Shown here piece after piece: positions 8,201 to 62,476 of a DNA stretch of 64,000 nt. The stretch's first letter is position 1. Each line of letters starts with the position of its first letter. The position numbers and the translations under genes were made by a program. The stretch is from assembly GCA_003116995.1 (NCBI GenBank), contig BDSL01000004.1, positions 2,170,001 to 2,234,000 of the forward strand, given 5' to 3'. The notes under the pieces were generated by a model, which had not been told where the DNA came from, made no database searches, and saw only the letters and a list, made by a program, of their open reading frames with translations. The stretch comes from Yamagishiella unicocca (taxonomy: Eukaryota > Chlorophyta > Chlorophyceae > Chlamydomonadales > Volvocaceae).

Positions 8201-11200
8201 GGTTCAGACACGGACGCGGACACGGACTGCTGCAGCGCCGCAAGCTGGCAGACCGGCCATTACATTGTTTGGGTCAGCGTAGGCAACCACCAAGGTGCTG
8301 TGCTAATTTACAAAGTTGCTGTGCTAAAAAACAAAGTTGCTGTGCTAATTCACAAAGGTGCTGCACGTGTGCGCGCGCTCTTGCTGTGGCGTGATGCACA
8401 GCCATGACAGAAAATGCTGCTGTCAGCCTGCGTTCTGGCCTCCCGTCGCTTGAAGTAAGTGATGGGAAGTTTGGAATCAGTAAACCACGATGTACGGACC
8501 TGTTCGTACAGGTGGTCATCCAGGGGCGACCCCAGCAGCACGTTCTCACGGAAGGTGCCCGCCGTTACCCATGGCTGCTGCGGGGCATACGCAAGTCGTT
8601 GCACGAATGTACGGCATGTGCCGCGCAGCACCGGAAGCTCGCCGCCACCCAGCAGCGCCGCCAGCAGGCTGCTCTTGCCAGCGCCCACGCGGCCCACGAT
8701 GACGGTGAGGCGGCCACGGGGGATGGAGAGGCAGATGTCGTACAGGCAGGGGTGGGCGGCCTGTCGTGGCAGGTGGGACGAAATGAAAGTGGGGGTTATG
8801 AAGTGAAACCCGTGACCCGAGACCCGAGAATGTGGATTGGGGGGAGTGGGGAGGGGCGTTTGCACGGGGCCTGTGACACACTGAGGCCTGGGACCTGTTT
8901 AATGCCGATGATACGCACACGATTTTGATCTATCAGCCCCACAACCACAATGTCTTGCCGTTGCCTTCCGCAGCACTCCCCACCTTCTCTTGACGTTCCC
9001 TTCTGCCAGGGCTACATGCTAAGCTTCGAGTGCAGAGAACGGGCTTGCACTCCGGCACCTGGCGCCCGACCTGCGCCTCACCCACCTCGTCCCATGCCAG
9101 GTAAGCGTTGCAGAGGCTGGCGGCAGCCCCATCGGGCTCCTCTGGAGGCGGTGCCGGCGACGGCGGAGGCGGCAGAAGTGCAAGCGTCGCGGTGGCGGCG
9201 ATCGCCTCCACGACGTTGGCAGAGGTGGAGGCACCCGCGACGGGGCTCAGTGAAGGTAGCAACGGCGAGGTTTCAGCGACGTCGGTGGACGCGCTGTCCG
9301 CGCTGTCGGCAGCCGATATCCGTATGACAGTGTGAGGTGAGCCTGAGGCAGAGAGACACAAGGTGCGGTGCGGGAGCGGGGACGGAAGGGTAGCAGGCAG
9401 GGCAGCTCCAGGTCCAGGAGCGGTAGCTGGCAGGGCAGCTCCAGGTCCAGGAGCGGTAGCAGGCAGGGCAGCTCCAGGTCCAGGAGCGGTAGCAGGCAGG
9501 GCAGCTCCAGGTGGTTTTGGGACCCAGGGAGTTGTTCCCGTAGTAGCGCCAGGAGGACTTACGGGCAATACGCAACCCAGACAACTGCATCCTTATTAAC
9601 GCGCACTTGCACGTATGGCTACAGCTGGAACTGTGGCTATAGCACCGCAATAGTCGCGGCAGCCACTGCTTCCCTCCCTTGCCTTCAATCCCTACAACCA
9701 CCCGCCTACCTTCACTGTCTGGAGCAGGCAGGCGAGGATCGTGGCCGACGGAGTACCTCCCCGTCCTCGTCACCGGTCGTGGTGGCGGCGACCGTGCCCC
9801 GTATGGGTCCATCGACGCGCCGCGGCCGGCAGGCCGCTGACGCCCCAAAGGGTCCGCTCCCGCAGCATCCGGCTCGCTGAAGCGAACAGACACGCCGCCG
9901 CTGCCGACGGCGGCCATACGCTTCCCGACCCGCGCCCGACTGCGCCACATCAACGCCGCCGCCGCCGCCGGGGGCAATCTTAACGTGTTTAGCAGCCGGC
10001 GAAGCGGGTCTGCGCCGCCACCGACGCCGCTGCCAGCGGCAGCGGCTCGGTAATCGTGAAGCGCAGCGAGCAGGCCGCAGCGGCGGTTGCGGGCGGGCAG
10101 GAGGTCCTCGGGGGCCCTATGGGTGGCGGCGGCGAGCACCACCTCCGCCGACTCTCGCGGTAGGTCGCGAAGGTTGAGCTTCAGGTCGTCGTACGCCCAG
10201 AGAGCCTTGGTTTCAGAGCGCAATAGGTAGCGCTGGAGCCGCCGCACCGAAACCACAGCCTCCGCGACGCCTGTCGGATATCAATTGCCAATGCAAGGCG
10301 AGAGGGGCGAGTCGCACGAGTGGGTAAGGCCGATGCAATGGTACCGCCTCAACACACAGGGTGCTTCCCACCGTGCAACCAACATCGCCAGCACCGCAAC
10401 ATCCCCATCCCCGCCACATGCACCCCGAACAGAGGTCAGCGCAGAAACACCTCAGTACTTACAGCGCCCACCTGGGTACACCCCCCTGGTAGTTCCCAGC
10501 CTTTGGCACGCCAACGCCAACCCAGCCACCACCCACCGTTGAACCCCCCTGCTGCCTACTCGCCACCCGACCCCGCATCTTCCTAATCAGTTCCAATTCC
10601 CAATGCCGACCCACGAGTTTCCTCTCACGCCCACCGTTGGCCCACACAAAGGCTTCTACCTCGCCACCACCCACCGTTGACCACCCAGGGGAAGGCGTTC
10701 AGCGGCACCGTCAGCAGCTGGAACAGCGAGAGGCTGGTGAAGGCCACCGCGGGGGTGAGCGCCGCCGCGCCGCCCAGCAGCACCACCAGACCGAAGGTGA
10801 GCGCGGAGAAGAGCAGCGTGGTGGCCGCCCAGAAGTACACGCACAGGGCGTCCAGGTACTTGCGGACGGCCAGGGAGCGCAGCTCGCTGCGCCTCGCGGA
10901 GGACACCTTGGGTGACGCGGTGGGGAGCCGGGGAGATGAGGACAGGGAAGGGCGGGTAAAGGAAGGGGGGAGCGAAGACAGGAGGGGAGGAGGAGGGGCG
11001 TTTGGGGGCGCGGTGGGGACGGGGATAGCGGACAGTTGGAGGGAGGGAGCGGGGAGATTGGGAAGGAAATTGAAGGGCCCTTTTTTACATTTTCCCACAC
11101 ACACCGCTGGACCCCCTGCCGTGCCTTTGAGACGTAGAACGCCTCCCACTGCGGCGCCAGCTTGACCGCGCGGATGCCCCGCAGCAACTCCGACATGGCG

Positions 11201-14114
11201 GAGACGCGGGCATCCTGCGTGCATGAGGCCACCAAGCGGACAGGCGGGCGGAGGTGTAAGCGGATACACTCGAGTCGGTGCCGGCTTACAGGGAGCTGAT
11301 CATCGACCCCGCCTGGCGCCCCGCGCGCACCTTTGCCGCCATCATGTCCGTGCTGGCCACCATGATGTAGCGCATGATGAGCCGGTTGGCCGGCACCAGC
11401 AGCAGGCTCACCGCCAGTCCCGCCACGAAGGCGTAGCGCACCTGCTCCAGGGAGGGGAGGGGAGGGAAGGGGAAGGGGGAGGGGAGGCTGGGACCACGCA
11501 GCATGATAGCAGTGAGGGCAGGTACGACAACCCTACGACAGAAACCCATCATACCGTATACGGTACACACCCAACAACTGCGTATGCACCCCCCTTCCGA
11601 CCCGTACCTGCGTGTACAGCAGGTACAGCGCCAACACCATCTGGGCCGGCAGCGACCACAGCTCGTGGAACGACACCAGCAGGTTGACGGCGCGGCCAGC
11701 GTCGACCGACATCAGCGTGCTCACATCCTCGCGACCGGTGGCGCCCTTGCCCTTGCCACCACCGGCGCTGCTGCTCCCTTCCTCTTCGCCTGCACCGCCA
11801 CCCCTGCTGCTCTCTCCGCCCGCGTCCGCACCGTCGCGCAAAACTCCGGCGCCGGCAGAACGGCCAGGCGCGCCCTCGCCCCCGCCACGACGGCAGGAAA
11901 GGCGGGCGCCTGTGCCAGGTTGGGGCTCCTCGGGCGGCGGCGGATCGTGCCGTACAGCCAGGAGGGACTTGCGGTACAGGATGCACATCAGGCCAGCGCG
12001 AAGTTGGCAGGATAGGCGGCTCTGCGCGAGTGTCGTGACAGGTAAAGGCGGAAGGGCAAGGCATATCCGGGTGTTGGCACATTGACCACACATTGGCAAG
12101 CAGAAGGGGTATGATCTCGTGACAGCTGAGCCGGATCCTTATGTGGGAGGTACCGTCTACGGCCAGGACGCAAATCAGGGAGACGGGAGGATGCGCCCTC
12201 TGGGGAGATTGTGTCAGCACAGTAATATGGCTCACTGAAAGGAAAGGGCGTCCGGAAGACTTGGCACGTATGTTGTCTCTAGACGAGCCGTTAAACACGA
12301 CCCAAATGCCATGTCCCGAACCAGTACAAGCCGCAGGTGTGTTTGGTGTCTGCGACCGAGCCCACATCCGTGACCCACATCCGTGACCCACATCCGTGAC
12401 CCACATCCGTGACCCACATCTGTGACCCACATCCGTGACCCACATCCGTGACCCACATCCGTGACCCACATCCGTGACCCACATCCGTGACCCACATCCG
12501 TGACCCACATCCGTGACCCACATCCGTGACCCACATCTGTGACCCACATCCGTGACCCACATCCGTGACCCACATCCGTGACCCACATCTGTGACCCACA
12601 TCCGTGACCCAAAAGGCTCCGCCACACCACTGGCCATCCCCAAACCCTCAACTGCACTGCCCATGCACAAACCAGTCGCCTCCACCCACCAGCTGGTAGT
12701 AATAATGCGCGTTCAGGAGCGACCGGCCGACAGAGGCCAGCCCCAGCAGCACCACACACACATAGCCGAAGCGAGGACTGGCCGGGCCCAGCGCTGCCAT
12801 AAGCGCACGCCACCAGGCCCACGGGTCATTGCCATCGCCGCTACCGTGGCTGTCGTCCCCGCGGTCGCTGCCAGCGTCGCCCATGGGGTCCACCGCACCG
12901 GCCCCTGGCCATGGCAATCCTTGGATCGCCGCTGGCGGGGCCGGCGGCGACGATGACGGTCGGGCCGTCACGAGCCACGTGACCAGCAGCTTAAGCAGCA
13001 GCGGCCCGGCGAAGCTGAGCAGGTCGTTTATCAGCTGCCAATGGGGAATGGTATATGGGAGAGCAGGTTGAGTTGGGAATGGCGACGAGTGCCTATCAGT
13101 GCGTTGGCGGTGGTGATCGCGATGGCAGGAGGACCTTTCCCGCGACGAGGCAAACACAGGAGGAGAACTAATCCTGTCCCAGAGACACCGCGGGCGTCAC
13201 TATGCGTTACGCGCTGCCGTTGCCGCCGCTCCCCGCCCCCTACCAGCCCCTTTCCGGGCCCCGCACAGAGCCGCGCACCTTGACCAGGCCCAACCACGCG
13301 TACGGCCTGCCGTACGTTCGCGCCAGAGCCCACAGCAGGGAGGGGCTCCCGGGCCGTACCAGTAGCTCCTGCAGGGACCGACCGGCAGCAGGAAACGGTC
13401 CGAGCTGACAAGAATGATGCGGTATGGTATCGGCATCCCGCCATATAGCAACCTCGCCAGTATCAACGAAAACCCAGCTTTGGTCGTTCGGCCAGCGGCT
13501 CAGTCACATGCTCTCGGAGTCTCCTGCCTTCCGGCCCTGGCCTGCCATTCTGTCCCTTCATCCTACCCACGTCATGACCCATATTCCTCCCTCCACGCGC
13601 CCCTTAAGAGGACTGCTCCAATCCGGTGTGGCCATCGCAACCAGCTAGGCAGCGCACCTTGCTCCAGTTGAGCCACAGCCGACGGCCACAGCGTCCCGGC
13701 TGCATGCTAGGGTCCAGAAGCAGCAGATCATCTGCTTGCAATTGCCGACTACTGCCAGTTTGCATGAGGGGCGTGAGCCAGCTGAACCAGCAGGTGTCCC
13801 ATTTGCTGTGCCCGATGGTGCGCGGTGGCATGTAGGCCGACTCCACGGCAGCTCCATCGGGGCTCGATCCTGAGCGCCAGGTGTTGCATCATCGCATATC
13901 GAATACAAGCAAGCGATTACGGACTGCTGCTACGTTTCGGATAAAGCTCTGACATGCCGCACGGCACGGCAGATATAATAGGTCTGCAGGGCATACGCAA
14001 AACAGTATAAAGGATTTGATAATTTTATAACATACCTTCAGGCCTGCCGCTCGGTTGCAACAAGGGCTCCTCCAGGCCCCCGGTTGCGCGCGTGCGTATT
14101 CGCACGCGCGCCAT
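2226..14114 (-). CDS. ABC transporter subfamily C (MRP-type), full length
   Basis: This is a full-size ABCC exporter, probably in the vacuolar or plasma membrane. It has 18 exons: 14036-14114, 13658-13869, 13279-13368, 12690-13034, 11608-12021, 11331-11441, 11125-11214, 10675-10906, 9710-10270, 9086-9342, 8500-8760, 7968-8050, 5735-7686, 5439-5541, 4973-5128, 4434-4627, 3424-4017, 2226-3217, giving about 2241 aa with all phases consistent. The start MARVRIRTRATGGLEEPLL resembles plant ABCC leaders. Order: L0 with WFSWLTPLM, TMD1 (residues ~205-535), NBD1 (Walker A GRVGAGKSS ~820, LSGGQ ~913, Walker B VLVLLDD), a His-rich linker (~1070-1092), TMD2 (~1201-1780) and NBD2 (Walker A GRTGAGKSS ~1890, LSAGQ ~2079, Walker B LVLLDE, H-loop EVAHD). 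No TMD0 is seen. Oddities: a ~310-residue loop between the first two TMD2 helices, a GC-AG intron after exon 7, NBD1 Walker B ending in D, and N in place of the NBD1 H-loop His. Substrate is unknown; glutathione conjugates or metal-thiol complexes are usual for the family. Confidence 0.93.
9391..9513. repeat. 30-nt tandem repeat, about 4 copies, in ABCC intron 9
   Basis: Near-identical units containing GGCAGCTCCAGGTCCAGGAG repeat about four times between the exons ending at 9710 and starting at 9342. On the plus strand they keep a frame open, which explains a spurious Gly/Ala/Pro-rich open frame. Confidence 0.9.
10603..10627 (-). repeat. Introner-like repeat, segment B, in ABCC intron 8
   Basis: In gene sense it reads GAGAGGAAACTCGTGGGTCG, beginning about 48 nt after the donor at 10674. 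It is the inverse complement of copies found near acceptors elsewhere. Confidence 0.8.
12360..12609. repeat. 13-nt minisatellite, about 19 copies, in ABCC intron 4
   Basis: The unit GACCCACATCCGT repeats head to tail with almost no divergence. A few units carry T in place of the second C of TCCG. Because 13 is not a multiple of 3, all frames stay open through it, producing long false open frames with the repeated peptide MWVTDVGHGCGSR. It lies between the coding exons ending at 12690 and starting at 12021. Confidence 0.97.
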
Positions 14115-15013: not shown

Positions 15014-16885
15014 CTAGGTGGAAGGAAGAAGCGGGATACGCTCCGCGTCGCCGTCGTCGGTGGGCAGGCTGCCGACGGCGCCACCGGCCGGTTCCACGGC
15101 TGTGCCGTCGCCGCCGCCAGCGGTCACAGCGGCCAGTGCCAACCATATCCCGATGGAAGCAGCGGCCGCTGTGAAAAGGCCCCAAAGTACGGCCCAGACA
15201 GCGAGTTTCCTGTTGTGCAGGCTCACGGCTGTCCACCTGTGCCCGGCCCCCAAGCACAAAGTAATGCAATGGGCAGCAATTAATAACATCAACAACAGGC
15301 CGTGCGAATGGACAGCACAACAAGCAGCGTAGGGTGGTAGGGGGTGTTGCAGGAGAGCGGGGATAAGAGCAGCAGCGACAAGAATGTGGGTGCGCGAGAC
15401 GGTTGGGTGGGCAGGTGCATGCGGCCTGTGGCGGCGACCCAAGCAGCGGAGAGTCCGTTTGTTGGCGAGGTTGCTCGGCCGTGTACGACGTCGTCAGTGC
15501 ATATGCACCCGTGCAGGGAGCCAGGCCCAACTCCAGGGGGCCCCCCCTTGCGTGGTCTCCCTGTCAATGCCGACCCACGGGCTTTCCTCACAACCCCCCT
15601 TGCGTACCAGCCCGAGCCGACCGAAGCCGCCAGCAACAGCACTGCTATCCGGCCCGCCGCCGGCGCCCCCAGCCGCTGGTGGATCACTCGCGATGACCTC
15701 CTCCGCGTCGCCGCGGGACTCGTCGGTTCCGCGAACGTCACATGTCGCGATCCAGCGGTCCGGTCTGCCGACATTGTCGGCTGCTGCATGGGTTCCTCGA
15801 GGGAGCCCGTCCAGCTGTACCTGCCGCCACCGCTCTCGCCCCCAACTGCAGCCTCATATCCCGTCGCAGGGCAGGCTAGGGCGGCCGCCGCCGCTGGATC
15901 CCACTGTGCGCCCTCGGCGCCGCCAGATAGGTACGTCGCCGCAGCGTCACGGTCCCGCTGGGGGGCACGGACGTCGCCGCCGCCACCGCCGCCGCCGTCG
16001 TCCACATCGACCACGCCAACGGTCTTGTATCCGCGGAACACGTCTACGCCATACAGTGCTGGCGCGCTGAGAACACCGCCACCGCCAGGGCTGCTGCTGG
16101 CAGCAGCAGCAGGTGCCGCGGCGGCGGCAGCAGCGGGCCGCTGCGACGGCGGCTTGAGGCGCAATGGTGGGAGGCGGGGACCCTTGGCAAGGTTATCGGG
16201 GTGGAGCAGCGCGTCGTCCTCCTGGGGCAGCGGGTAAGGGGCGGAATAAGTGGCGGGAAGTGCAGCTGGGGGCCTGGACCAGGCGTGTGGTAGGCGCTTC
16301 ATCCGGCCACAAAGGGGTTGTTTTTGGCGGGGCCCGCCACGGGGATGAGAGCCCAGATGGCAGATAGGTCAGGTCCCGACACCGCTCCCATACCGAAGCC
16401 ACACCTGGAAGGCGTCAACCGCCGCTGCTGCGTCATCGTTGCACTCCGTCACCTCCCGGAACAGCGCCTTCAGGGGTTCAGGTGCTGCCGCACAGGCTGC
16501 GGATGATGATAGCGCGGCAGCGGCTGCCGTCGGACCGAATGCGGCGGCGGCGATGGGCCCCGTGACGCCGCTGCCGCTGGCCCCGTCGCTGTCAAGCTCG
16601 AAAGGGCCCGCCGGCGCGGCCGCCGCGGCAGCGGTCGTCTGCCGCGTCAGCTGAGCATCTTTTTCATGCCATGCCGCATCGGAAGGAAGCTGCTGGGATG
16701 CCGAGAGGGAAATGCGGGCGCAGCAAGCATGGCGAGGATTCGGATGGAAGGTTGCGAGACTGCTATTATACAGCCACGCAGTTGAGAAAGGGCTGAAGAA
16801 CAAGTGCGCTTCGCTAGTCGACGTGACGAACCTTCTGCGGCAGCATGGGAGTCCACAGCGCGCGCGAGGAGCTGGAGGATGCCAT
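15014..16885 (-). CDS. Unknown protein with two C-terminal membrane helices
   Basis: I do not recognise this family. Four exons (16832-16885, 16405-16650, 15608-16221, 15014-15236) splice in consistent phase to about 378 aa. The first exon (MASSSSSRALWTPML...) is short and is supported only by its ATG, a GTTCGT donor and correct phase. Residues ~19-100 are Ala-rich with EPLKALFREVTECNDDA. Residues ~101-290 are a low-complexity Gly/Ala/Ser/Pro cytosolic-type region with islands GVDVFRGYKTVGVVD and RHVTFAEPTSP. The C-terminus has two hydrophobic helices, RIAVLLLAASVGSGWWTAV and LAVWAVLWGLFTAAAASIGI, followed by an acidic tail ending in ERIPLLPST. A membrane-anchored protein is likely. Intron 3 begins with an introner-like repeat. 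Confidence 0.7.
15567..15591 (-). repeat. Introner-like repeat, segment B, in two-TM gene intron 3
   Basis: In gene sense GTGAGGAAAGCCCGTGGGTC, starting about 17 nt after the donor at 15607. Confidence 0.8.
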
Positions 16886-18978: not shown

Positions 18979-21068
18979 TCACATGTCAGAGTCCTCCAGG
19001 GCCGCCTTCGCTTGCCGCTCCGCCTCCGCCAGCAGGTCGGCAGGTACCTGGCGGGGGGGGGGGGCGGCATTAGCTCATTCGGGTTCCGGCATGGAGGAGG
19101 GACGGGGGCTTGAACTTGGCAGCACCTTGACCATGGACCGTCAACCGGCGCCGCCACGCAAGGGGACTAGGGTCCCCAAACCCTTGCCTACGCCCGTCCG
19201 CGCCCTCACCCGCTGGTGCTGCTTGTTGGTCTCGTCGCAGATCCAGCTGACCTCCAGCTCAAACTTCTTGCCGTCCTCATCGTGCACCTTGTGCAGGCTG
19301 GTTAGGGGTTTTGACAGCGGGGGACAGGGCGGAAGGGGGAAGACAGCTTGTAAGGGTGGCGTACCAGACGGCTGGATGTGACGCGACGCCCTAGCATGCC
19401 GACAGGAGTAAGCTGCCAACTGGCTCAGTACTCGTCCACCCATGTTTCCGCGCTTCTTGGCAGAAGGCATCCGCCCCACTTCTAAAACCTACCGCCGCCT
19501 TCTAACACGTTAGACCCCTGCTCCACACTGATCTAGGTTTCGAACCCTCCCCGCACCCGCTGCCGCAACACGACACACTCACATCTTGACCGCCTCGATG
19601 ACCGCCTCCCGGCAGCTCATCTCCGCCAGCTTGAGCTTCTCAATCTCGTTCTTGGCGGCCTGGCGCCCTTTGCCCACGGCGGTGCCGAAGTAACGCTGCA
19701 GGGCGAGACGCGGTTTCGAGCGGAGCGGCGGGTGTTGCAGGAAGGAGGACGACAACGGCGAGGATCGACGAGGTGACCTGATCCAGGCGACTCCCCAGCC
19801 TAGCCCCTGCCCCATTCCCGACTCCCCTCCCAAGCCGGGTTTCATCCCCGGCCGCCCCCCACTCCACTAATCCCCGACGCAAGGCCCCACCAGCGCCGAG
19901 CCCGACGGGTCGACAGCGTATAGCGCCGGGCCGTTCTTGTCGTACACCGCCAGCAGCATGGTGGACCCATACGGCCGTAGCGACCAGTACAGGTTGAACA
20001 TGTGGACGTAGCTGCCCAGGCGCTCGCACAGCACGTGGCCGGGGATGGCCTCGCCGTACACGCGCTTGTACGACGTCGCCTCATCCGCGGCGCGGTTGGA
20101 CACCATGCGGCCGTCGGGTGCCAGGCCAGCCACGGCCTTCGTGTGGGGACAGGGGAGTGGGGAGTGGGTTGGGCAGAATGGTGGCTGGCAAAGGTGTGGT
20201 GTGTTAATTTTCGGCAGTCCTACTGATGCCTTGAACGGAACGTTAAGCGCACTGATATCCAGCCCGGCCCGGCCCCCGCCTGCTTTTCCTCGCCTCCATG
20301 CGCCAATCCACGGGTTTCCTCTCAGGCCCCGCCTGCAAGGCTCACCACGCCCACGTGCCGGTCGATGTTGTGTATCCTGCGGTTGGACCCCTCCACCAGC
20401 AATTTCGATAGCACCAGCTTCTCGCACGCCTGCGCGCGACACGTACGATACGAGTGTTAGGAAGGGCGCGGGAAAGCCTAGCGCGGGTTAGCTTGTGCGT
20501 GACAAATGAAGCCGCGTCAGTCGTGGAACTCCAGTCGCGGGACTCGTCTCATTCAACTAACGCAGCACGGACAAATTGCGGGCTCCATGTTCAGCGTGTC
20601 TTTACGCGTTTTCGCGCGGTGCTGCTGAGGGGGTTGGTCCGGGCCGGTAGGAGGGAAGTGGCCAGCCCAGCAGTACCAGTACATAAGCGCGGGCTGGGGA
20701 CGGGCGCTGTTTCATTTCGCAGCCAGTTGCCTACCAGCACGACGCCGTCCTTGCATCGCAACCCCAGGACGGTGCTGCAAAATATTCAAGTAAGGGGGAG
20801 GGAGGCGGGGGGGGCCGGAGAAGTAAGGCACCAGCCGGAGTAGAGCGGTCGCAACCCCAGTTTCCGCTTCGAGTGATACCTGCTGTTATCTACCGCCTTC
20901 TGCGCGTACTCCGTTTGAAAGATCTTGCCATCGGGAGAATATGTAGTAGCTGACAGGTCATACTGCGTGGCGCACGCGGTTCCAGCATTGTCCGTAAGCA
21001 AGATATTGCAATCTGCGAGGTGTCCGCGCAGCTAGTGAACCACGCACCCCTGTGCCGATGCCCGACAT
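18979..21068 (-). CDS. PSMA3: 20S proteasome subunit alpha type-3 (alpha7)
   Basis: This is an outer-ring alpha subunit of the 20S proteasome, without catalytic activity. It acts in gating and assembly in cytosol and nucleus. Eight exons (21048-21068, 20880-20962, 20735-20774, 20346-20429, 19891-20136, 19583-19695, 19210-19297, 18979-19047) give 247 aa, the usual length. The tiny first exon encodes MSGIGTG and joins [20 protein letters not shown], the alpha-subunit signature. Then follow [31 protein letters not shown], the core [56 protein letters not shown] and the tail [23 protein letters not shown]1 is the plant name. It shares a 278-bp upstream region with SNF5. Intron 4 carries an introner-like repeat near its donor. 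Confidence 0.98.
20302..20324 (-). repeat. Introner-like repeat, segment B (diverged), in PSMA3 intron 4
   Basis: In gene sense TGAGAGGAAACCCGTGGATT, about 21 nt after the donor at 20345. Confidence 0.7.
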
Positions 21069-38137: not shown

Positions 38138-38192
38138 GGCACCGTGGGGCCATGTGAGGTCATGTGGTGCGCTGTATGAGGTGATGAGCGGC

Positions 38193-38422: not shown

Positions 38423-38600
38423 ACGACCTCCGAGTCACTATGAGGGAGTCGCGAGTGTGTTCTTCCCTGTTCTTCCCCTGAGGGAGTACGCGGGGTGAGG
38501 GGCCACCAGGCGCACCTGCAACGGCGGGGTACCAAATTTGGGATTTTTAAGAAAGGGGGGGGAGCCTCCCCGCGCCCCCCCCCCCGGGCTACATTTCCCC

Positions 38601-38632
38601 AGTCGAGTTACCGGTTCTTTTATTGTATCCCC
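38601..38632 (+). repeat. Dispersed repeat, segment D, intergenic
   Basis: AGTCGAGTTACCGGTTCTTT followed by TATTGTA. Near-identical copies are at 53531-53562 and 62195-62226, and an inverse one is at 54338-54366. Confidence 0.88.
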
Positions 38633-48655: not shown

Positions 48656-48838
48656 GGTGCCGCTGCTGTGAGGTGCCGCTGCTGTGAGGTGCCGCTGCTG
48701 TGAGGTGCCGTCGCTGTGAGGTGCCGTGGCTGTGAGGTGCCGTCGCTGTGAGGTGCCGCTGCTGTGAGGTGCCGCTGCTGTGAGGTGCCGCTGCTGTGAG
48801 GTGCCGTCGCTGTGAGGTGCCGCTGCTGTGAGGTGCCA
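48652..48838. repeat. 16-nt tandem repeat beginning at the phosphatase stop codon
   Basis: The unit TGAGGTGCCGCTGCTG, with a CGTCGCTG variant, repeats about 12 times. The first TGA of the array is the stop codon of the phosphatase. Confidence 0.95.
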
Positions 48839-51223
48839 GTCACGTGAGTGCGTGGCGCGGCGGTGGTGGTGGTGGTGGTGCGTGGCGCGTGGTTGGAAGC
48901 TTCGGCGATGGATCGGAAAGGACGAGCAGTGGGGCTGATGTGTGCAGGAGGAGGTAGGCGGCTGATCGGGCGGCCGCGGCACCGCGGCCTGCGGCTGCTC
49001 TGCGGCTAGGGAGGGAGGTCATGGTACAAAAGGGCGGCGGCGGTGTACAGCGGCGGCGGTGGACGCATCAAGGGGCTGGTGGGTTGCTGCGGGGTCGGCC
49101 TGAATACCGAATACCAGCTCTAGCGGCTTCGCATTGGGGCCCATCTTGGGCCGGTCTCTCGTTTTTTAGGTGACGCATAAGGGGGTGCCGGGCCAGTGCC
49201 CGGTCGCCAGCAGCTGTCTGGCTAGGGCGGGGAAGAGCGGCGGCGGCGGTGTTGCTGCCATTCAACCAAGAGGATGGCATCGGTGCGGCCGTCCGTCCGC
49301 CTGTGTCAACACACTGAACAAAACCGAGCATTCATGATAGAGTCACTGCTGGTGGTGGTGGTAGTGGTAGTGGTGATGGTGGTGGTGGTGATGGTGGTGG
49401 TGGTGATGGGGATAAGAACAGCGACGAGCAGCTGTTCGCTGCGTCTCGCTATGAGAACTTGTGCAGCCGCCCGTGATTCACATGCCTCGGGTCGTGTCTT
49501 GCGCTTATCGAACGGTGGTGGTCGTGGTGGTGGTCGTGGTGGTGGTCGTGGTGGTGGTCGTGGTGGTGGTGCCGTATGCGCGAGCCGCATACGCGCGACG
49601 TGGTGGCTGCATGTGGGGCCCAAGTCCTTAGCTCCGCCCCTTCCCACACAAGCCGGCGCCGCCACCACACCGCCGCGCTTGTGGGGCAGTGCGTGGGGGG
49701 TTTGTACGACAATCTACGGTAATGTACGGCAGCTTCCTTGTACGTCCTCCTGAGGAACGTGGCAGTAAGGCCAAGGAGGAGGCGGAGGGCTGGTGCCCCT
49801 GCCGGGGCGAGTGGCGTCTCGCTACTGAAACGCGCGCCTCTCCTCCCGGTTGCATTCGGGTGGCCGTTGGCGCCAACCCGTGGTCCGTACTCGCAGTAGG
49901 GTGCTGCTGCTGCGCTGGTTTGTATTTTTCCCTGCCGAAATGCGCGCCGTGGCTGCATGTTTGGTTTCGGAGAGTAGGTGTGGTATATGCGGGCGGCGTG
50001 GTGGCGCAAACGGCGGCCCCGGGCTGTGCGGCGGCGGACACCTTGACGTATCCCAACACCACCCGGGCCTCCTGAGCGCCACTGCGCCCATCCCCCACGA
50101 CTGCTGGGGGTTGAGACGAAACCCAACTGCTCCGGGGGGTCTCGTGATAGCACGTGCGGACGAACGCCGGGCCCCCACAGGGCACCCCCTGCGGCTGGAT
50201 AAGGCGGGGGACTCTGCAGGGACTGTTGTGGAAATCAAGGTGACGCGTGGCCCCTGTTGGCGCGGTGTTTGCCTGCTGGAAGTCTGGCGGGCGGGCGGGG
50301 GCCCGGCTGTCGTGCAGGTCGTGACGATGCGATTCTTAAAAGGGCCCAACTGGAAAATCCCAATTGAGGTATATCTGTCGTTTGTCGGGAAGTCAAGCAA
50401 TGAAGTAAGCATCTGCGCGTGGGCGGCTTTGGTGCGCGTGGAGAGAGAAGAGCTGGCCTGTAGTTGGCCCGCCCGGGCCGTGGCGTTGCCGCCGGCCAGC
50501 CCGGAGGCCAGCGGCGTGCCCATTTTGGCGCACGGCCCGGCGGCGTGTGCTCAGGTGAGGTGCGTCGTGGTTCATAGTTTCGTCAGCGGCGCGGCCCATG
50601 TGCACGCGGCTGAGAGGTTATGGTGTTCGTTGTTTCGGGTGCGCGTTGCATCTCGCAAGATGTCGGGCGTCCGCATATGCTTCTCAACGAGGGGTGGAAT
50701 TTTAGCAGTATGATCAAATCATTGACCAACTTACAAACGTGGTATTTATCCTAAGTCCATTCTGGCTTTCGCAGAAAGGGGCTTGTTTTGTTTGTACGAT
50801 CTGGTTTAAGACGTAACTGAGATTCTGGGTGTGCTTTAATGCTGGCCGGACGCCCAACAAGGCGAGCGGTGATGGGGGCTGGACTCCTTGGGCCCGAACT
50901 TATAGACTCCGCAGTGTGTCAGCTGACACAATTTGCGTGAGAATTCGCCTGTGATCATGTGTCTCTCGAAAAGTCTTTGTGCACACGCTTATACCCCCTA
51001 GCGCTGCTGGCCTTCATGAAGCGATTGACGCTCCGGAACCATTCAGCCACAGCACGGTCAGCATGGCCATGCGCTAATGCTCACATGCTCACACTAGCCT
51101 GTGTTCATAAATAACCGTCGCACCAATTGGCTGGAATATAACGATTGTGTCTCCTTAGGACGCCAAGGGCCCGCATGCTTTGTTTGAATCCTTGTTTTTT
51201 AATACCGGTAGTCATCTCCCCGC
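48839..51223. other. Intergenic region with GGT-type repeats and one uncertain open frame
   Basis: Contains GGT/GTG-rich runs at about 49347-49410 and 49512-49570. A plus-strand frame from ATG 49940 to 50713 (258 codons) stays open but has no recognised motif, several internal splice-like GTAAGC/GTGAGG sites and no homopolymer bias typical of neighbouring exons, so I do not call it a gene. The final 500 bp are less GC-rich and probably hold the promoter of the next gene. Confidence 0.4.
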
Positions 51224-52804: not shown

Positions 52805-53564
52805 GCCAAGCTGCCGGGCGAAGGGGGGTGGCATAAAGGGGGGCGTAGCGGATAGCGGGGGGTGTGGGCGGGAGGGAGGAAGGGCGGGATGGTTCCGGTT
52901 GCGATTTCAGTTGCGAGAGGGCAGTACCGGTATGCGCGGCTGAGTAGCACCAGCAGCAATGCGGCGGTGGCGGCCAGGGGACATCGGCGGCGAAGGTACT
53001 CCTGGCAGACCGGCTGGGTGCTGCCGGAGGCGTAGGCACGTGGGCCATCGGAACTGGGCCGGCAGCCGGGGCGGGCGGCACTGGCGGCGGTAAGCAAGCG
53101 CTGACTGATGGGTGGCTGGGCAGTGGCGGCGCGAAGTGGGGTTCATCAGGAGTTTAAGAGTTTTGGGCTGTTGAGGGTTGATGGCCGATGAACGGCAGGT
53201 CTCGTGGTATGGGGTGGCGACTAAATCCGTGGAGTGAAAATAACGATCGATTAGGAAACGTTTGGTACACAAGAAGCTGTGGAAGGGGGGCCTTGGATTT
53301 GTTGTTGGCACCAGCCAGGAGGGGTGCAGCAACCACCATCCTGCCCCACACACCCATTTTCCAGCCCGCAAGCCATTTACGCCTCTTCTCTGCAACTGCG
53401 CACCCCTCTTCGTCACCACCAGCTCTCCCTCCCTGTAGCCACCCAGCCCTCCTGCGTCCCCCCCACCTCTCCCTACCCCGCTAGATTCCCGGCACACTAT
53501 CTGCCCCTTCCCCCCTCCCCCCCTACTCCCCAGTCGAGTTACCGGTTCTTTTGTTGTAACCTCC
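52805..53564. other. Convergent intergenic region (zinc-finger-like gene / TatD gene)
   Basis: Only 3' UTR-type sequence is seen, plus repeat copies: one at 53531-53562 beside the TatD stop codon, and a segment near 53215-53275 resembling part of the RING-LON intron 9 repeat. Confidence 0.45.
53531..53562 (+). repeat. Dispersed repeat, segment D, at the TatD stop codon
   Basis: AGTCGAGTTACCGGTTCTTT then TGTTGTAA ends two bases from the TatD stop codon at 53565, antisense to the gene. Confidence 0.88.
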
Positions 53565-56337
53565 CTACTCCCCGCCAACCCCATCCCCTGCCGCCTCCAT
53601 CTCTCCCATGCGCTCCAGGCTGCCGGCGTAGAACTCCCGGAAGTTGTCCGACGTGGCTGCGGCCGCCTCCTCCAGGCTCACGCCTCGCGCCTCCGCCACC
53701 AGCGCCAGAATGCGGAGCAGCCCCGTGTCTACCTCTGTGGGGCTGTTCTGGTCGCTCTCCACCAGCAGCCGCTCCAGGGGGACCGCACGGAGCCGCTCCA
53801 GGAGCTTGTCGCGAGCTCGGCCGTTGATGACCGCTGAGAAGCTGCTTGTCGAGGGCGGGGGGCAGGTCGCAGGGATTGGGTGCAGGGATTCGGGTTATGG
53901 GGTTCAGGACGCCGGGATACAAGAAGGGGAACTCGGGAGGGCAGTGTTGATGTTCTTTTGTCGCATAGAGGATGATTTGTTTTGCTTCTGCTGGTGTTCG
54001 CGGGGTGCGGTGGTGTCCATTACTGATGTCATGGATATTGATGGCAGCTTTGCAATCAAGCTGCGGCGGTCAGTTGCGGAGGAAGCGGGGAGGGGACTCG
54101 TGCCGGGCCAGGGGGGCTCACCATCCCCCCCCCGGCTCTCCCCCCCCCTCAACCCTCCAAACTAGCACTACCTCTCCTCCTATTTCAATTCATCGGGTTT
54201 CCTCTCCCGCACCTGAAGTATATTCGGTCGCCCAGGCCCCCGGGCATCTTGGTGAACCCCTTGACCAGATCTACACTGCCGCCGTAGCTGCCCGGGCGGG
54301 GGAGGGAGGTCAAGCAGAGGGAAGTGGGCCCCGTGGGGTTACAGAAAAGAACCGGTTACTCGACATGGGAAGTGTAGCTGGTGCATAGCCTTCGGACACC
54401 TGGACGCGCGCGCAGGCTACTGGACTTGGGTCCCCGGGGGGGACATACCGATCAGGGAGCGAGAGCCATCAGAAGGGGAGGAACGGGGGCGGCTGCAAGG
54501 AGAAGCGCCCGCGGCGTCAAGAGCAACGCTGTACGGCTGATGAGCGCTCCTTTACCCACCGCCGGCGCGGCGGCTGGGTACCATGTACTGATTCCATGGA
54601 GGGGGAAAGGCCGGGAAGAAGACGCGGTGTGGCAGCCCACTGGAGCATTGTACGGCAGGAAGGACGGGCGCTCCCGGCGTCCCGGGGAGCCATCCCGATC
54701 AAGAAGGCACACGCACGAAGTTCCCAGCCGGATTCCCTCCCCCGACCGGCCCCTGCCTGCCTGTGCAGCATGATCTTGGGCGGACACCCCTCCGGCCCCA
54801 GCCGCCGCAGCATGTCCTGCAGGTGGCCGTACCCCTGCACGCAGTGCATTGAAACCGGCCGACCCAGCTCCGAAGCCAGCCGCAGGTGCAGCTCCGTCAA
54901 CGCCAGCTGGTGGCTCCAGGAGGGCTGTGCGCGGGGGAAGCGGGGCCCGGGGCAACAGGGTGGGGGGTTGTGGCGGGAGGGCAACGCAGGGGGGCGACTG
55001 CCGGGGTGGGGGGACGGCCGCCAGTCAAGGCTGCTCCACGCCCTTCCAAACACTCCTACCAGCGACTCCTTACTGCTGGGCATGCCTGACAAGCACAAAA
55101 ACACATGTCCAGGTTCCCCAAGTCCAGCGCCTGTCCAACCCCTCGCCTCTCTACCTCTCTACCCTACCCCGGCCGCACTCCTGTGCCTCACCTCGCCTCA
55201 CCTGCAGCTTCGTGCCCGGCACCACCGCCGCCCTGTCCAGCCCGAACTCCCCCACCACCGCCTGCGGGTGCCGCAGCAGTAGCGCCCGCAGCCGCGGCAC
55301 CCACTCCTCGGGCGGCGCCGGCACCAGCGAGCGCATGAGCTCAGGGTGGCGGGAGGGGTCGTCCTTGCCGTTGGACGGGGAGTCGAGCAGGGCGGCAGGG
55401 TCGGAGGCGGCGGAGGCGTCCAGGGCGTGACGGTGTGCGAACCAGGGGTGCACTCCAAAGCATGGAATGACCTGGGGGCCATCAAGCAGAGGCCGAGTAT
55501 CGGAGGGGCAAGGGCTTTGAGCGGAAACCCGTAGTGGGGCCGGGGCAGAGGGAGTGAAGGTGTCGAGAAGAAGGAGCCAGGCAATGAGGCAGAGGTGCGC
55601 GGCATGGGTGGTGCGCTGGTGGTGGGCAACCAACCCCACTCCTGCCGGGCCCCAGCCGCGCCTCCCTCGCCCTACCTTGCGGGGCGCCTGGCGGCACAGC
55701 TCCTCCACCGCCCCCCAGTCCTCCAGGCGGGTACCCATCGCCGCGACGTGGCGGGCAGAGAGCGACAGCACCTTGGCGGCGCAGCCGTCCCTGTCGTCCT
55801 GCAGGCGGTTGGCGGTTGGCGGTTTGGGCTTGTGGGTTGGGACGTGAGGGGGTGGGAGCGGGAGGAGGGGGGGAGGAGAGGAAGCGTGTAGAGCAAGGGC
55901 CCGCCGTGGGAGGCGATGTGAGGGTCGACGAGGTTGCGCGGATCGAAGTGGCAGGATGGATGTAAGTAACGCGGAGTGGAGGAACAGACGGTTGGCGAGG
56001 GATGTGCGCGATGTCGCGGGCACAGGAGTTGGTAACTAACAGCTGCGAAATGGACGATGTAAAGATGGCCTCCAGGGAGGGTGAGAAGCAGCTGCGAACC
56101 GGACAAACGACTGGACTATTGGGACGTCCTGTGGGGTAGGGGCAGGAGAGCAACCTGTTCCGCATTCTCTGGAAAGGTTTACCCCCTCCCTGCTACCCCA
56201 TTACCCTCGCGCGCCAACAGGACCACAAGACAAAGCAACTCCCTACCCGCCCATAGGCCCACCTGGGGGTGGCAGTGCGCGTCGCCCGCCCCAAACCGCT
56301 CCAGGAGAGAAACGTCCATCGGGGCCTGCGCTGCCAT
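53565..56337 (-). CDS. TatD-family metal-dependent deoxyribonuclease
   Basis: TatD hydrolases are TIM-barrel, two-metal 3'-5' exonucleases acting on DNA. Six exons (56263-56337, 55676-55798, 55202-55471, 54761-54906, 54213-54287, 53565-53841) give 321 aa with consistent phases. The metal ligands are all present: HxH in AGDAHCHPQ, E in VVGEFGLDR, H in VSMHCVQGYGH, H in KIMLHSYGG and D in LLVESDQNSPTEVDTG. GVHPWFAHRHAL is also typical. The exon 4 to 5 junction (LH-S-YGG) works only with a GC donor at 54760, since no GT lies in reach that keeps the conserved LHS. Intron 4 carries an introner-like repeat near its acceptor. No targeting signal is obvious. Confidence 0.95.
54338..54412 (-). repeat. 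Introner-like repeat, segments D and C fused, TatD intron 4
   Basis: In gene sense it contains GTGTCCGAAGGC, then CATGTCGAGTAACCGGTTCT. It links segments C and D as parts of one element. Sense orientation, about 50 nt before the acceptor at 54288. Confidence 0.83.
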
Positions 56338-57886: not shown

Positions 57887-60800
57887 ATGTCGGACGCTGG
57901 CTCGGCACAATTTGCGTCCACGCAGCAGCAGGACTTGGGCGACGACCAGCTCGACCCGCACGTAGAATATCTACAACAGCTGGTGCGTATAGGAAGCCCA
58001 TAGCGGAGAACTCTCGCGCAGAGGGTTATGCCTGTCCACTTCGGCACCCGGACGCGACCCCTTCCACCTCCTGCCAGCGCACATACAAGCTGCAGAGGCC
58101 GACGCCCCCTCACAACATCCCCCTCTCCCCCTTCCTTCCGGCCGCCCGCAGCTGCGTGACAATGAGTTCTTGCAGCGGGAAAATCTGCTGTTCGAAGCGT
58201 TCTTGGCCAAGGTACGCGGGGGCGCCAGCCGGGCTCCGGTTGGGTAGAGAAGAAATAACCCGCGGAACGAACGGAGGAAAGGTCAAAAGGTTAGGGGTCC
58301 GGTGGGCTGCGGCGCGGCTGGGGTGTGGCGGGGTTGGGGGCACTGCGTGTTGGGTGGGCTGCTACGACATCATGGCGGGGCAGCGGTGACATCATGTTTG
58401 CGACATTGTGGCGGGGGGTTCAATAGTATCCACAGAAAATATGTGGCGCAAATCCACAGAGAAATGTGGCGGGGGAGATAGCATCTGGCCGTGTAGGAGA
58501 CGTCGAAAATGGTGCCGAGGGGCAGGTTGCCAGCCTTTCCATTGTGTGCTTGGATGCGGCGGCTGGCGAAGGGACAGCTCCAGGAGCACGAGGCGGTGGT
58601 TCGGGCACGAGCGAAAAGGCACAGCTGCCGGGGTGGTGGCGCCAAGGGGCGCAACGTACTTCGCCCTCCAGCCCCACCAGGACCCGCAAATACCACGGGT
58701 ACTCCCGACTGATGATGTTGGGGGTGGTTTAAGGAGAATCCGCGAATCCACGGCCGACAAACCAAGGCGGTGATGACGGTGCGGTTGGGTGGCGTGGAAG
58801 AAGGGGTCGCCTGCTCCGGCCGGGAAGCAGGCGACCAGCGTGGTTCAGGTCGGAGCCCGGGCTGGTCGTGGAATTGGTCGTGGAGGGCACAGGAGCGATG
58901 GGGCAGCTGGCGAAGGGAGAGCGGCCAGAGGGACCGGGGTGGCGCTTCTGGGCGGTGCCGTGGACGAGCCGGCGAGGCGGATGAGGCGGATGGGGCGGAT
59001 GGGACACGGGGCCAGAGCGGAGCGGAAGCGGAGGGAGCGGCACGAAGAGGAGGATGGGGGTGGCGGGTGGGGTGCCGCACGCGCGGACAGCACTGCGGAA
59101 GTCAGCGCGGGAGTCGGGAGGCCCGACAGCCGGGTCCCGCCACCAACACCTACACCCTCGCCAGCAGCGCCGTACAGGCTGTGCACCGGCGCCCGGCCGG
59201 TGCAATAAGCAGCAGCCTCTCCCGCCACGCCCCAGCACCGCTACGCATACCTGCCCCCCGCCTCGGCCTATGTGTGTGTCGTACCACGGATTTCGTACCA
59301 CGGCTTTCCTCTCTACCCCGCTCCTGTCCTCCGTCTCCTATGTCGTGTACCTGGTCTTCTCGCCACCCCCTCGCCCCTACCCCACTCCCTCCCCGCCCGC
59401 CCACTCACTCTCTATCCGCCCGGCTCCCCTCTACTCGCCCTCTCCCTCTCTACCCGCCCTCTCCCTCTCTACCCGACCACTCACCCTCTACCCGACCACT
59501 CACCCTCTACCCGTCCTCGCCCCCGCCTTCGGCTTACAGGTTGACTTGAGCAAGCTGGGCTCCCTGGCCGAGGAGGAGGCGGCCAAGAAGAAGAAGGCGG
59601 CGAAGAAGGGCGGAGCGGGGGGGCCACCGGCTGCTGGCGGCAGGGATGCGGGCGGGCTGGGCGGAGGACGCGGCGCCAGAGGGGAGGGTACGTTCTCATC
59701 CCTCACCGACGAGGAGAAAAACGACCTGGTCAGCCAGGAGGTGGAGATGGTGCAGGCGGAGATAGAGGCGGTGAGCCGGGACGGTGTGTGTGTTGAAAGC
59801 CGCGGGGAGGTGCGGGTGTGGGTGTGGGAGCGGAGCGGGGGTTTTGTGGAGAAGGCCGGGCAGGAATGTGCGGAGTGGTGGTGGGGAGGGAGGGACAGGG
59901 GGGTTGAGTGAAGAAGGGCGCCAAGCTACTCGCCTGCAAAGCCACGATTAGGTGATGTCCCCGAAAGGCCCTCCCTCCCTGGAGGGCCCCACGCTGCCCG
60001 TCGCGAAGCTCCTCCAACCCCATCTCGCTCTCCCCCTCCCCTCCCCTCCCCTGCCCCTCTCCCCCCCCCCCCAGATCAAGAAGGCGGGCGATAAGGACAT
60101 CGACGACATCCGCACCTTGATGGAGGAGGTGGACATGCGCATCGCCGAGACCAAGAAGGACACCTACGAGTTCAAGCGCGACATCATCATCGGGGCGGAG
60201 AACCCCCGCTCCGGCAAGGTGGTGGCGGAGAAGATGATCCGGTGGGTGCCCGGCTGGGGCTGCGAGGTTGGCTGGCTGGCTGGCTGGCCGCCTGAGTGAG
60301 CACCTTTGTTGACAGACAGTCGGCGCCTGGCCAGCCCGCCACTCTCCAAGCAAAACCCACGCACCTCCCCTTCCTCCCTCCCTGCGTCTCTCCGTCTTCC
60401 TCCTCCCCGTCGCCTCGCCTCCCTCTCCCGCCCTCCGTTCCCTCTTTGTCGATCTAGTGCTGCCTCGAGTGCCGACCCACGGGTTTGCTGTCACCCCCCG
60501 CCTCCTCAGTTTTCTGGAGGACAAGCTGCGGCAAAAGGACGCCACCGCTGACAAGCTGCGGCTCAAGAACACCACCACCAAGGCGCTCATCACCAAGCTG
60601 GAGCACCAGCTGGCGCACAAGGAGGAGATGGGAGAGGTGGGGCGGCCCCGGTGGAGGGCGGCTGTGCGCGTGTGTGTTGGGGGTGTGGGGGTAAAGGGGG
60701 GAGGCACACCCGGTGTGTGCTCGTCACGACAATTCCCAGGATGCGGCGGCACGACGTCAGATAGTTCACTCCCGCACCGCACTTGTTGCAATCGACATAC

Positions 60801-62476
60801 CCCCACCCCCACCGTGTTGTTCGGACGAGAATGCTTCCTGAACAACGCGAGGAGGAGAGATCCCCGCGTCTCCAACCCCTCCCCTTCCCCCTACCGCCTC
60901 CCCCCCCAGGTCCTCCACCTCGTGGACTTCGACCAGCTCAAGATCGAAAACCAGCAATACATGGAGCGCATCGAGGAGCGGAACAACGAGCTGCTCAAGC
61001 TCAAGTTGTCAACCAGCAGGACGGTGCAGGTGCGTGAAGGCGCGTCGAGACAACACGTGGCTGTATTTGGGGGGGGAGGAAAACCGTGTACACGACATAG
61101 GAGGAGGGTGCGTATGGGGTCCGGACGGGGGGGGGAGGAAACCCGTGTACGCGACATAGGAGGAAGAGGGCGCGCTGGCAGGAGCCAGGCTGCGGCTCGT
61201 CTTCTGCAGCCCCGGTCGCACCCGCGCATCACCTGCCGGCCCAAACAACCCTCCCTGGCGTCCTCCTTCACCTTCCCTCCCTCCCCACCACCAGGCGCCG
61301 ACTATCCTGTCATTGTCGCGTCAACGGTTTTTATGCCACACCCCCACCGCCCTCGGTTTGTCGGCCGTGGATTCGCGGATTCTCTTATCACCCCCCCCCA
61401 GTTCTCCAGCATGCATCTCAAAACGTCTGTTCTCAACGATTTTTTCTCGCATCCACGGGTCTCCTCGAAACCCCCAGGTGCTCAACAACCTCAAGTCCCA
61501 GCTGAGTGACATGGTGGCTGCCGGCCACCAGCTGCGGCGCCAGATCGCGGAGCGCAAGCAGGACCTGGCGCGGTTCGACTCGGAGTTCACCTCGGTGCTG
61601 GACGAGAAGGGGCGCGGAGAGCGGACGGTGCGGCGACTCAAGCTGCAGCAGGAGGACATGTGAGGGCGGGGCGGGACGGGGGTTGGGGGGACCTGGGGGG
61701 CCCCTGGGGCGGGGTTGGGGTTAGCACAGCGGTTGCCCGACAGAGGAAGAGAGGGCAGCTGCTGGGTGTGGTGGCAGCTGCGCAGCTAGGGGTCCTACGC
61801 TACGACCGTGTTGGTACGTCTGCACGTCCTAGCCTTCCTGGCAGCGTGCCTGCGCCGCGCTTTGGCTGCCCGCGGAGGTTGGCAAAACGCCAATCAGTTC
61901 ACTAGAAAAGGACAGCCACAGCTACCTCACGACGCCCACACCACCGCCACCTGGGCAGGTGGCGCCTAAGGCTGGTGGCACCGACCGTACCAACACCCTC
62001 CGTGTCACCCACACCCACTGCTCCCGCGTCCCTCTTGCCTTCCTCACGCCTACTGGCACGCTTGGCCTGCCCTCATGCGGCCATGCACTACAGCGTTGTC
62101 CCTCTCGTAATACCCGCATACCCCCCGCTTGCTCCCCCGGACGGCGGCCCCCTCCCCCAACCCCCCCGAAGGCTATGCACCCACTTCATTTCCCCAGTCG
62201 TGTTACCGGTTCTTTTTTTGTAACCCCCCCCCCCACACACACACACCGTCCATTCCCCCCCCCCACAGCGACACGCCCACCATCATGGACTACATCAAAC
62301 TCAAGCACGAGGTTTCGGAGCTAGAGAAGCAGCTCACGGACTGGCGGCGCAAGATCGACATCCTGACCATGGAGAAGACCCGCAAGCGCACCCTGCTCAA
62401 GACGGTGGCCACAACCACCATCCCTGGACCACAGCGCGCCTCACCCAGCGCGGGGGGCATGGGCGGCGGCTTGTAG
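57887..62476 (+). CDS. CCDC113: CCDC113 / FAP263-type ciliary coiled-coil protein
   Basis: An axonemal/basal-body coiled-coil protein of the CCDC113-CCDC96 family, which bridges structures along the doublet microtubule and supports ciliary beating. Eight exons (57887-57982, 58152-58211, 59540-59770, 60075-60241, 60510-60636, 60910-61029, 61478-61659, 62269-62476) give 396 aa, close to human CCDC113. Features: an acidic N-terminus, a Lys-rich AEEEAAKKKKAAKKGG block, then nearly continuous coiled coil. The hallmark stretch runs across exons 5-6: KEEMGEVLHLVDFDQLKIEN then RIEERNNELLKLKL and VLNNLKSQL. The C-terminus has YIKLKHEVSELEKQLTDWRR. The paralogue CCDC96/FAP184 shares the domain, so which member it is remains slightly uncertain. 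It shows that the organism, or its close relatives, builds flagella. Confidence 0.93.
58734..58763 (-). repeat. Introner-like repeat, segment A, CCDC113 intron 2
   Basis: The inverse complement contains CGGCCGTGGATTCGCGG, antisense to CCDC113. A segment C core (ATGTCGTGTACCTGGTCT) lies in sense at 59339-59356 of the same intron. Confidence 0.85.
60469..60492 (+). repeat. Introner-like repeat, segment B, CCDC113 intron 4
   Basis: GTGCCGACCCACGGGTTTGC in sense, about 20 nt before the acceptor at 60509. Confidence 0.82.
61352..61476 (+). repeat. Introner-like repeat, segments A and B together, CCDC113 intron 6
   Basis: Segment A (61352-61388) is followed by a longer B-type copy (61402-61476) containing CTCCAGCATGCATCTCAAAA and CGCATCCACGGGTCTCCTC, which abuts the acceptor AG at 61477. 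Inverse segment C cores lie at 61075-61102 and 61137-61162 near the donor of the same intron. Confidence 0.88.
62195..62226 (+). repeat. Dispersed repeat, segment D, CCDC113 intron 7
   Basis: CAGTCGTGTTACCGGTTCTT followed by TTTTTGTAAC lies about 40 nt before the acceptor at 62268, in sense. Confidence 0.87.

Follow-up and report, generated by a model that had tools for sequence, protein, structure and literature searches.

Intronic repeats of Yamagishiella unicocca as probable 5'-truncated tails of Penelope-like retrotransposons inserted at C-runs

A 64-kb stretch of the genome of the volvocine alga Yamagishiella unicocca (contig C4, positions 2170001-2234000; referred to here as the window) carries short dispersed repeats of five families (designated A to E), nearly all of which lie in introns. 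These repeats are probably the tails of Penelope-like elements (PLEs), mostly truncated at their 5' ends and inserted at C-runs in introns that already existed. The initial annotation of the window had interpreted them as candidate introners, i.e. mobile elements that create introns. Mobility and concentration in introns were borne out by the present analysis, whereas the creation of introns was not, in view of the ragged 5' ends of the copies, their occurrence in both orientations and the median of 391.5 nt of intron that remains when they are subtracted.

Repeat families and copy number

The four core sequences that define families A to D were all recovered in the window, as exact matches for A (four copies), C (one) and D (three), and solely with one to four mismatches for B (eight matches at no more than three mismatches). 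Self-comparison of the window after masking of tandem repeats yielded 27 pairs at E≤0.05, with 1.5e-17 as the lowest E-value. Across the genome (133,378,104 bases in 1415 contigs), exact matches numbered 724 for a 22-mer of A (362 on each strand), 110 for a 27-mer of D (50 and 60 by strand) and 431 for a 17-mer of E (199 and 232), with none for the same sequences read backwards, and a 141-nt query gave at least 44 matches (best 40 of 3354 candidates scored). The recurrence reported in the initial annotation is therefore genuine.

The proposal that four linked segments represent pieces of one longer element did not hold, however, as the segments were shown to be the 3' ends of several families. 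C and D have cores that represent variants of a single sequence, and an additional family, E (..GCATCCACGGGTCTTCCTCGAAACCCCC), adjoins A at window positions 61398-61474. A single longer A-D element was consequently rejected; co-occurrence of segments mostly reflects repeated or composite insertion. The presumed C and D pair in the TatD gene is one copy, since its core matches (54349 and 54345, respectively) overlap, while A and C do share an intron of the RING-LON gene, which is intron 13 in the present gene model and not intron 11. At seven places (window positions 61354-61474 and loci L002-L006 and L010, the latter six having been retrieved with an A+E query), E comes directly after A, with 4-25 nt between them, which suggests that a fused element was itself copied.

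Copies were called by a profile search with families A to E (E<0.01) in 264 kb including the window, which revealed 70 copies, together representing 1.27% of the sequence. Three exact patterns were observed four times in this region, compared with 2.5 expected. Extrapolation from 70 copies per 264 kb gives, very roughly, 10,000-40,000 copies in the genome.

Concentration in introns

Gene models were obtained with our own gene finder (joint version), trained on the 264 kb around the window (from C4:2000001) and seeded with a codon table. Introns, intergenic DNA and exons, which make up 58.6, 14.3 and 27.0% of bases, contained 68, 2 and 0 copies, respectively, indicative of enrichment in introns over both intergenic DNA (P=6e-5) and exons (P=3e-10). 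The statement of the initial annotation that no coding exon carries a copy applies to all 70 copies and to every gene-finder setting used. Under alternative settings, 61-68 copies were intronic and 2-9 intergenic, and a stricter cut-off (E<1e-6) retained 51 copies, 49 in introns and two in intergenic DNA, again with none in exons. Within seven genes confirmed by Pfam, all 23 copies were intronic. A further 26 loci of 3 kb, retrieved with the A+E query and leaving out two near-identical loci, contained 98 copies, 94 of which were located in introns, four in intergenic DNA and none in exons, and 66 of 80 displayed the polarity described below.

Common 3' end and variable 5' ends

The copies share a 3' end (..CCTC-AAACCCCC), and 161 of 172 profile hits (165 distinct places) reach to within 4 nt of it. 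As the end used in this count is that of the profile model, the drop in identity was also assessed: identity amounts to 0.65-0.80 just inside the 3' end and falls to the level of shuffled sequence just outside. At their 5' ends, the copies are variably truncated, with extents supported by two other copies ranging from 27 nt up to the 380-nt limit of the comparison; most copies measure about 27-150 nt and a few exceed 700 nt. E copies extending back by more than 700 nt were found at L017, L019, L020, L021 and L024, of which L019-L021 are mutually near-identical.

The tails of the five families, trimmed by eye, have a motif around CGGGTCTTCCTC in common, with a summed pairwise score of 154 compared with 96.5 (sd 7.2) for shuffled tails (0 of 2000), and the conserved element end can be written as ..CGGGTCTTCCTC-AAACCCCC. 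Individually clear pairs are E-B, E-C and C-D. A short stem is possible in all five tails, and none is clearly better than its shuffles (z −1.23 to 1.07), so that no conserved 3' hairpin was discerned.

Several observations were made alongside. E-type tails are arranged head to tail with a spacing of ~30 nt at C5:2081041-2081507 and around positions 1620-1750 of L002, reminiscent of a minisatellite derived from a retroelement tail. Near-identical stretches occur at three places, one of them inverted (L019-L021, on C337/C66); L019 and L021 are 99.6% identical over 1.6 kb, and these stretches represent either a recent segmental duplication or an assembly artefact.

Retroelement origin of family E

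Longer E copies lead into coding sequence. Those at L017, L019 and L021 extend back by ~800 nt, and that at L024 by ~1.5 kb into a frame with YTNIP- and GIPMG-type motifs, which we take to be those of a reverse transcriptase (RT). At L024, the RT match and the E tail are on one strand, 0.9 kb apart, with the RT upstream. At L052, an 808-codon stop-to-stop RT frame was chosen for its alignment with relatives (another frame there is longer), and sequence downstream of this frame overlaps L024 and the start of the ~800-nt copies at L017 and L019. An 83-residue RT query returned 55 match rows in the genome. At least 14 database relatives were present among the matches listed, including Chlamydomonas and Tetrabaena proteins named reverse transcriptase, and alignment with 13 relatives revealed 44 invariant columns.

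The AlphaFold2 model of the RT (predicted local distance difference test 83.3, predicted template modelling score 0.82) was compared with PDB structures. The 11 best matches are all telomerases (E-values 5.4e-8 to 2.1e-4, template modelling (TM) scores 0.43-0.52), followed by group II intron RTs, while R2 and LINE-1 structures scored far worse. Two distant relatives (P0013 and P0014, 23-24% identical) combine RVT_1, below the Pfam cut-off, with a GIY-YIG domain, which is above the cut-off in P0013 (E=7.7e-5) and below it in P0014 (E=0.0023). Scans of six closer relatives (P0001, P0002, P0005, P0006, P0007 and P0011) revealed no GIY-YIG domain. Since PLEs are described, in the portion of PMC11167929 consulted, as combining a telomerase-like RT with GIY-YIG, family E was classed as a PLE, and its identification as the 3' end of such an element is firm. 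Families A to D are likely to be PLE tails as well.

A second RT family, which is 55% identical over the region covered by the query and occurs at seven places with the same score in the RT search, terminates in L053 (C302:17101-18900) at a (CA)n tract of 28 nt. In L011, L013 and L027, homology stops at this same AAAACACA point, which suggests that related PLE families differ in the simple repeat that they enter.

Orientation and C-runs

Intronic copies lie in sense (35) and antisense (33) orientation at similar frequency, yet their positions differ: 28 of the 35 sense copies are nearer the 3' splice site and 28 of the 33 antisense copies nearer the 5' splice site (P=6e-8), such that the C-tail points towards the nearer exon in 56 of 68 copies. 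The same polarity, from G-runs at the 5' end to C-runs at the 3' end, was observed in 259 introns that carry no copy, where the first 25 nt contain GGGGG at 9.8 per kb and the last 25 nt contain CCCCC at 23.4 per kb, compared with 2.4 and 0.0 for the opposite runs. When every C- or G-run is treated as a target, the predicted polar fraction rises with the minimum run length, from 0.695 (4 nt) through 0.749 (5 nt) and 0.788 (6 nt) to 0.826 (7 nt), against an observed value of 0.824 (P=0.024, 0.21, 0.55 and 0.87, respectively). C-runs alone thus predict nearly the whole orientation bias. The 20 nt that follow copies are 52% C, compared with 30% in copy-free introns. Copies are situated at a median of 73.5 nt from the splice site that they face (quartiles 26-156), with a few within ~10 nt.

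The opposite relationship, i.e. C-runs originating from decayed tails, was rejected. In copy-free DNA, a tail-like motif was found upstream of 203 of 3430 C-runs and downstream of 179, which is no clear excess, and a looser tail pattern matched 84 places, called copies included, compared with 60 for the reversed control.

Copies as probable additions to existing introns

A copy is present in 52 of 373 introns, which have a median length of 453.5 nt compared with 278 nt for the remainder. Because these introns remain large when copies are subtracted (median 391.5 nt, minimum 126), the copies are regarded as additions to introns; this median is at the lower edge of the range predicted by a draw proportional to length (390.5-894). 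Introners were sought as highly similar whole introns in the survey of PMC9860276, as far as its main text describes it. Carrier introns in the 264 kb do not have this form, given such residual lengths, nor were splice sites found within the element or acquired at its edge, the facing splice site being a median of 73.5 nt away.

A probe from the ABCC gene gave nine distant paralogue matches (27% identity), with alignments that end at query residue 183-184, close to the junction of the carrier intron at 181.3. In the one paralogue examined, the apparent donor has the same phase and is displaced by 9 nt; over 201 nt, roughly 100 nt of which are intron, no significant copy was detected. At most, this comparison suggests an intron that may occupy a similar position without a copy.

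Proposed mechanism and alternative explanations

The RNA of a green-algal-type PLE would be reverse-transcribed into the genome, in most cases with 5' truncation to about 30-150 nt, through target-primed copying in which the C-tail may pair with a target C-run. As the C-tail matches target C-runs, a copy would be oriented with the C-run on the same strand; and as introns are rich in G next to the 5' splice site and in C next to the 3' one, sense copies would accumulate at the 3' end of an intron and antisense copies at its 5' end. The introns would pre-date the insertions, insertions in exons would most likely be cleared by selection, and families A to D would employ the same machinery as E.

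A number of observations weigh against this explanation. Regarding C-run targeting, introns are favoured over intergenic DNA beyond their C-run density (P=0.026, 0.002 and 0.0003 under three settings), runs of at least 4 nt under-predict polarity (P=0.024), and the distance to the facing splice site is shorter for copies than for C-runs (median 73.5 vs 109 nt, P=0.015), which the C-run model leaves unexplained. The gene models underlying these comparisons are predictions from sequence. Regarding the element itself, L024, the single locus with both RT and tail, is frame-shifted and lacks ~1.07 kb present in L052, the L052 piece stops short of the tail, Pfam returned no match to the RT (RVT_1 included), and the PDB matches are modest (TM scores 0.43-0.52). 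GIY-YIG was not detected in the L052 frame (the piece could begin within the element), and none was read in this genome. A hammerhead ribozyme was not detected in L017, L019, L024 or L052 at E≤5; hammerheads and pseudo-long terminal repeats (pseudo-LTRs) are common but not universal in PLEs. Individually, the A tail resembles no other (P=0.06-0.42), nor does the D tail resemble E (P=0.13) or B (P=0.46), and no RT frame was seen attached to A, B, C or D, for which the longest supported extents are 83-127 nt. As for insertion into pre-existing sequence, the copy at L017 splits a tandem repeat and has the same 7 nt at either border, and the joined flanks match sequences on C177 (77%) and C209 (74%) across the join without the insertion. 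The junctions lie in the repeat array, which leaves the target base unfixed, and this single insertion in a tandem-repeat host is weak evidence of an empty site.

Given their short extents and the lack of a joined RT, families A to D could be separate non-autonomous elements, akin to short interspersed elements (SINEs), that depend on the PLE enzyme, recruited by means of a common 3' end, with E alone being the PLE. We regard this as the less probable account of A to D. The absence of copies beyond 83-127 nt, the extents of 61-66 nt in 13 of 29 D hits and the 3' motif common to the families are in line with it. Nevertheless, E copies in the 264 kb are hardly longer (up to ~165 nt, one duplicated segment aside), no tRNA, 5S or 7SL match from Rfam overlaps any window copy, B looks similar to E throughout its length on visual inspection, and the tails of E and C, and of C and D, are alike.

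Introners, where each insertion would have created its intron with splice sites derived from the element ends or the target, appear improbable and were rejected as the main explanation. In their favour, restriction to introns is strong, the 3' splice site follows two of the sense copies after 3 and 6 nt, three introns have outward-facing copies at both ends, and one 281-nt intron would retain only 49 uncovered nt if its copies extended 60 nt upstream. Against this stand the large residual introns, the 52 of 373 introns with a copy (so that the majority show no visible contribution from these families), the position and orientation that nearly follow from C-runs, the variable 5' ends, which provide no constant second splice site, and the ABCC paralogue, in which no significant copy was detected in the roughly 100 nt of intron covered. 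Miniature inverted-repeat transposable elements (MITEs) or other cut-and-paste DNA elements would likewise be short, numerous and genic, but the copies have one constant end only, and E is continuous with an RT frame, which contradicts such an origin for E and makes it very unlikely overall. Least plausible of all are conserved intronic splicing or regulatory motifs: closeness to splice sites would fit, while nearly equal orientations, hundreds of exact genome-wide copies, ragged 5' ends and the coding relative of E would not.

Copies and other features of the window

Using the profile search described above, 27 copies were located in the window, 25 in 20 introns of eight genes, two in intergenic DNA and none in a predicted exon. 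Seven predicted proteins or parts thereof were subjected to Pfam analysis, and all seven matched the expected family (proteasome, LON/RING/TPR, IPPT, DSPc, TatD, CCDC113 and SNF5). The names ABCC and IPT9 are those of the initial annotation, and ABCC is outside the Pfam set.

Three antisense B copies on the plus strand occur in the first part of the window, in ABCC intron 7 (10579-10632, E=4.0e-11), intron 4 of an unnamed gene at 15014-16846 (15549-15596, E=2.8e-5) and PSMA3 intron 3 (20280-20330, E=2.4e-6). SNF5 harbours two sense E copies, also on the plus strand, in intron 4 (23057-23130, E=1.3e-13), 6 nt from the 3' splice site, and intron 5 (23634-23703, E=3.2e-12).

The TPR-RING-LON gene contains three antisense copies on the minus strand, belonging to C in intron 4 (32015-32051, E=3.2e-7), E in intron 10 (35316-35389, E=1.5e-18) and B in intron 11 (35852-35915, E=5.5e-10). 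Its sense copies, on the plus strand, represent A (37372-37411, E=3.0e-12) and C (37435-37462, E=1.1e-5) in intron 13 and B in intron 14 (37797-37831, E=6.7e-4). The intergenic copies are both of family D on the plus strand (38581-38632, E=1.9e-14; 53527-53563, E=1.1e-9).

In IPT9, B copies are antisense on the plus strand in introns 7 (41711-41762, E=9.3e-11) and 3 (44086-44142, E=1.6e-14). Sense copies on the minus strand are found in intron 6 (A, 42192-42232, E=3.0e-9) and, as a pair of C copies, in intron 5 (42449-42482, E=8.5e-10; 42495-42532, E=1.3e-9, the second of the pair). TatD intron 4 carries the sense D copy on the minus strand in which the C and D core matches overlap (54335-54394, E=2.7e-19).

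CCDC113 contains antisense copies on the minus strand in intron 2 (A, 58724-58763, E=5.7e-13) and intron 9 (C, 61072-61104, E=3.2e-4, near the 5' splice site; C, 61131-61164, E=5.1e-3). Its remaining copies are sense on the plus strand: C in intron 5 (59330-59366, E=1.3e-6), B in intron 7 (60445-60499, E=5.6e-8), 10 nt from the 3' splice site, the A (61354-61394, E=3.5e-13) and E (61398-61474, E=1.8e-20) parts of the A+E composite in intron 9, the latter 3 nt from the 3' splice site, and D in intron 10 (62167-62228, E=1.5e-16).

The window also encodes a dual-specificity phosphatase at 45234-48655 (Pfam DSPc, E=3e-29), which the initial annotation did not mention, and two tRNAs, at 189-262 on the minus and 1438-1510 on the plus strand. 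Minisatellites at 12309-12676 (13-nt unit), 46990-47465 (24/25-nt unit) and 48594-48881 (16-nt unit) are intronic or at a gene end according to the predicted models. A separate dispersed repeat with TTGTAACCGTTACAACA and TGGGTTCCAGACCAA and a palindromic core, possibly a MITE, was noted at positions 10103, 20256, 70170, 99042 and 111447 of the 264-kb stretch and at L024:636-722.

Implications and comparison with known systems

The analysis replaces intron creation with a testable targeting rule, whereby a C-rich 3' end lands in C-runs and the strand-asymmetric composition of introns then sets where, and which way round, copies are placed. If general, such a rule would link the end sequence of a retroelement to intron architecture. 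More tentatively, a C-run-targeting PLE clade may exploit the G-to-C polarity of introns in volvocine algae to find its landing sites, leaving some ten thousand short tails beside splice sites that would slowly lengthen introns; this makes it a candidate cause, in part, of the as yet unexplained length of introns in volvocine algae, and paired outward-facing copies may, rarely, form most of an intron. Given that identified copies amount to 1.27% of the 264 kb, a large effect would require many decayed copies, of which no clear sign was found.

The 'Chlamys' type of PLEs, from the green lineage, has an N-terminal GIY-YIG domain and prefers (CA)n targets. Green-lineage PLEs were reportedly described by Craig et al. 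in 2021. The present elements resemble the 'Chlamys' type in the telomerase-like RT, in GIY-YIG N-terminal to the RT in two distant relatives, in volvocine hosts, in 5' truncation and in simple-repeat targets ((CA)n in the C302 family), and differ in that E and its relatives are located in C-runs, are mostly only 30-150 nt long and are concentrated in introns with splice-site polarity. A literature search retrieved no C-run-targeting PLE family by title or start of abstract, the text of the key green-lineage PLE paper being outside its coverage.

With canonical Penelope/Poseidon PAc, as presented in the part of PMC11167929 consulted, they share a telomerase-like RT, a proposed target-primed type of copying and, judging by the two distant relatives, an endonuclease. 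PAc is described there with C-terminal GIY-YIG, pseudo-LTRs, a hammerhead and initiation of reverse transcription within its template, whereas no hammerhead was found here. Like the introners of PMC9860276, the main text of which names neither Volvox, Chlamydomonas, Gonium nor Yamagishiella (its supplements were outside the search), the families studied here are mobile repeats concentrated in introns of many genes. Introners are, however, whole introns and, in that text, most consistent with DNA transposition, whereas the copies in Y. unicocca are partial tails that lie in both directions within larger introns.

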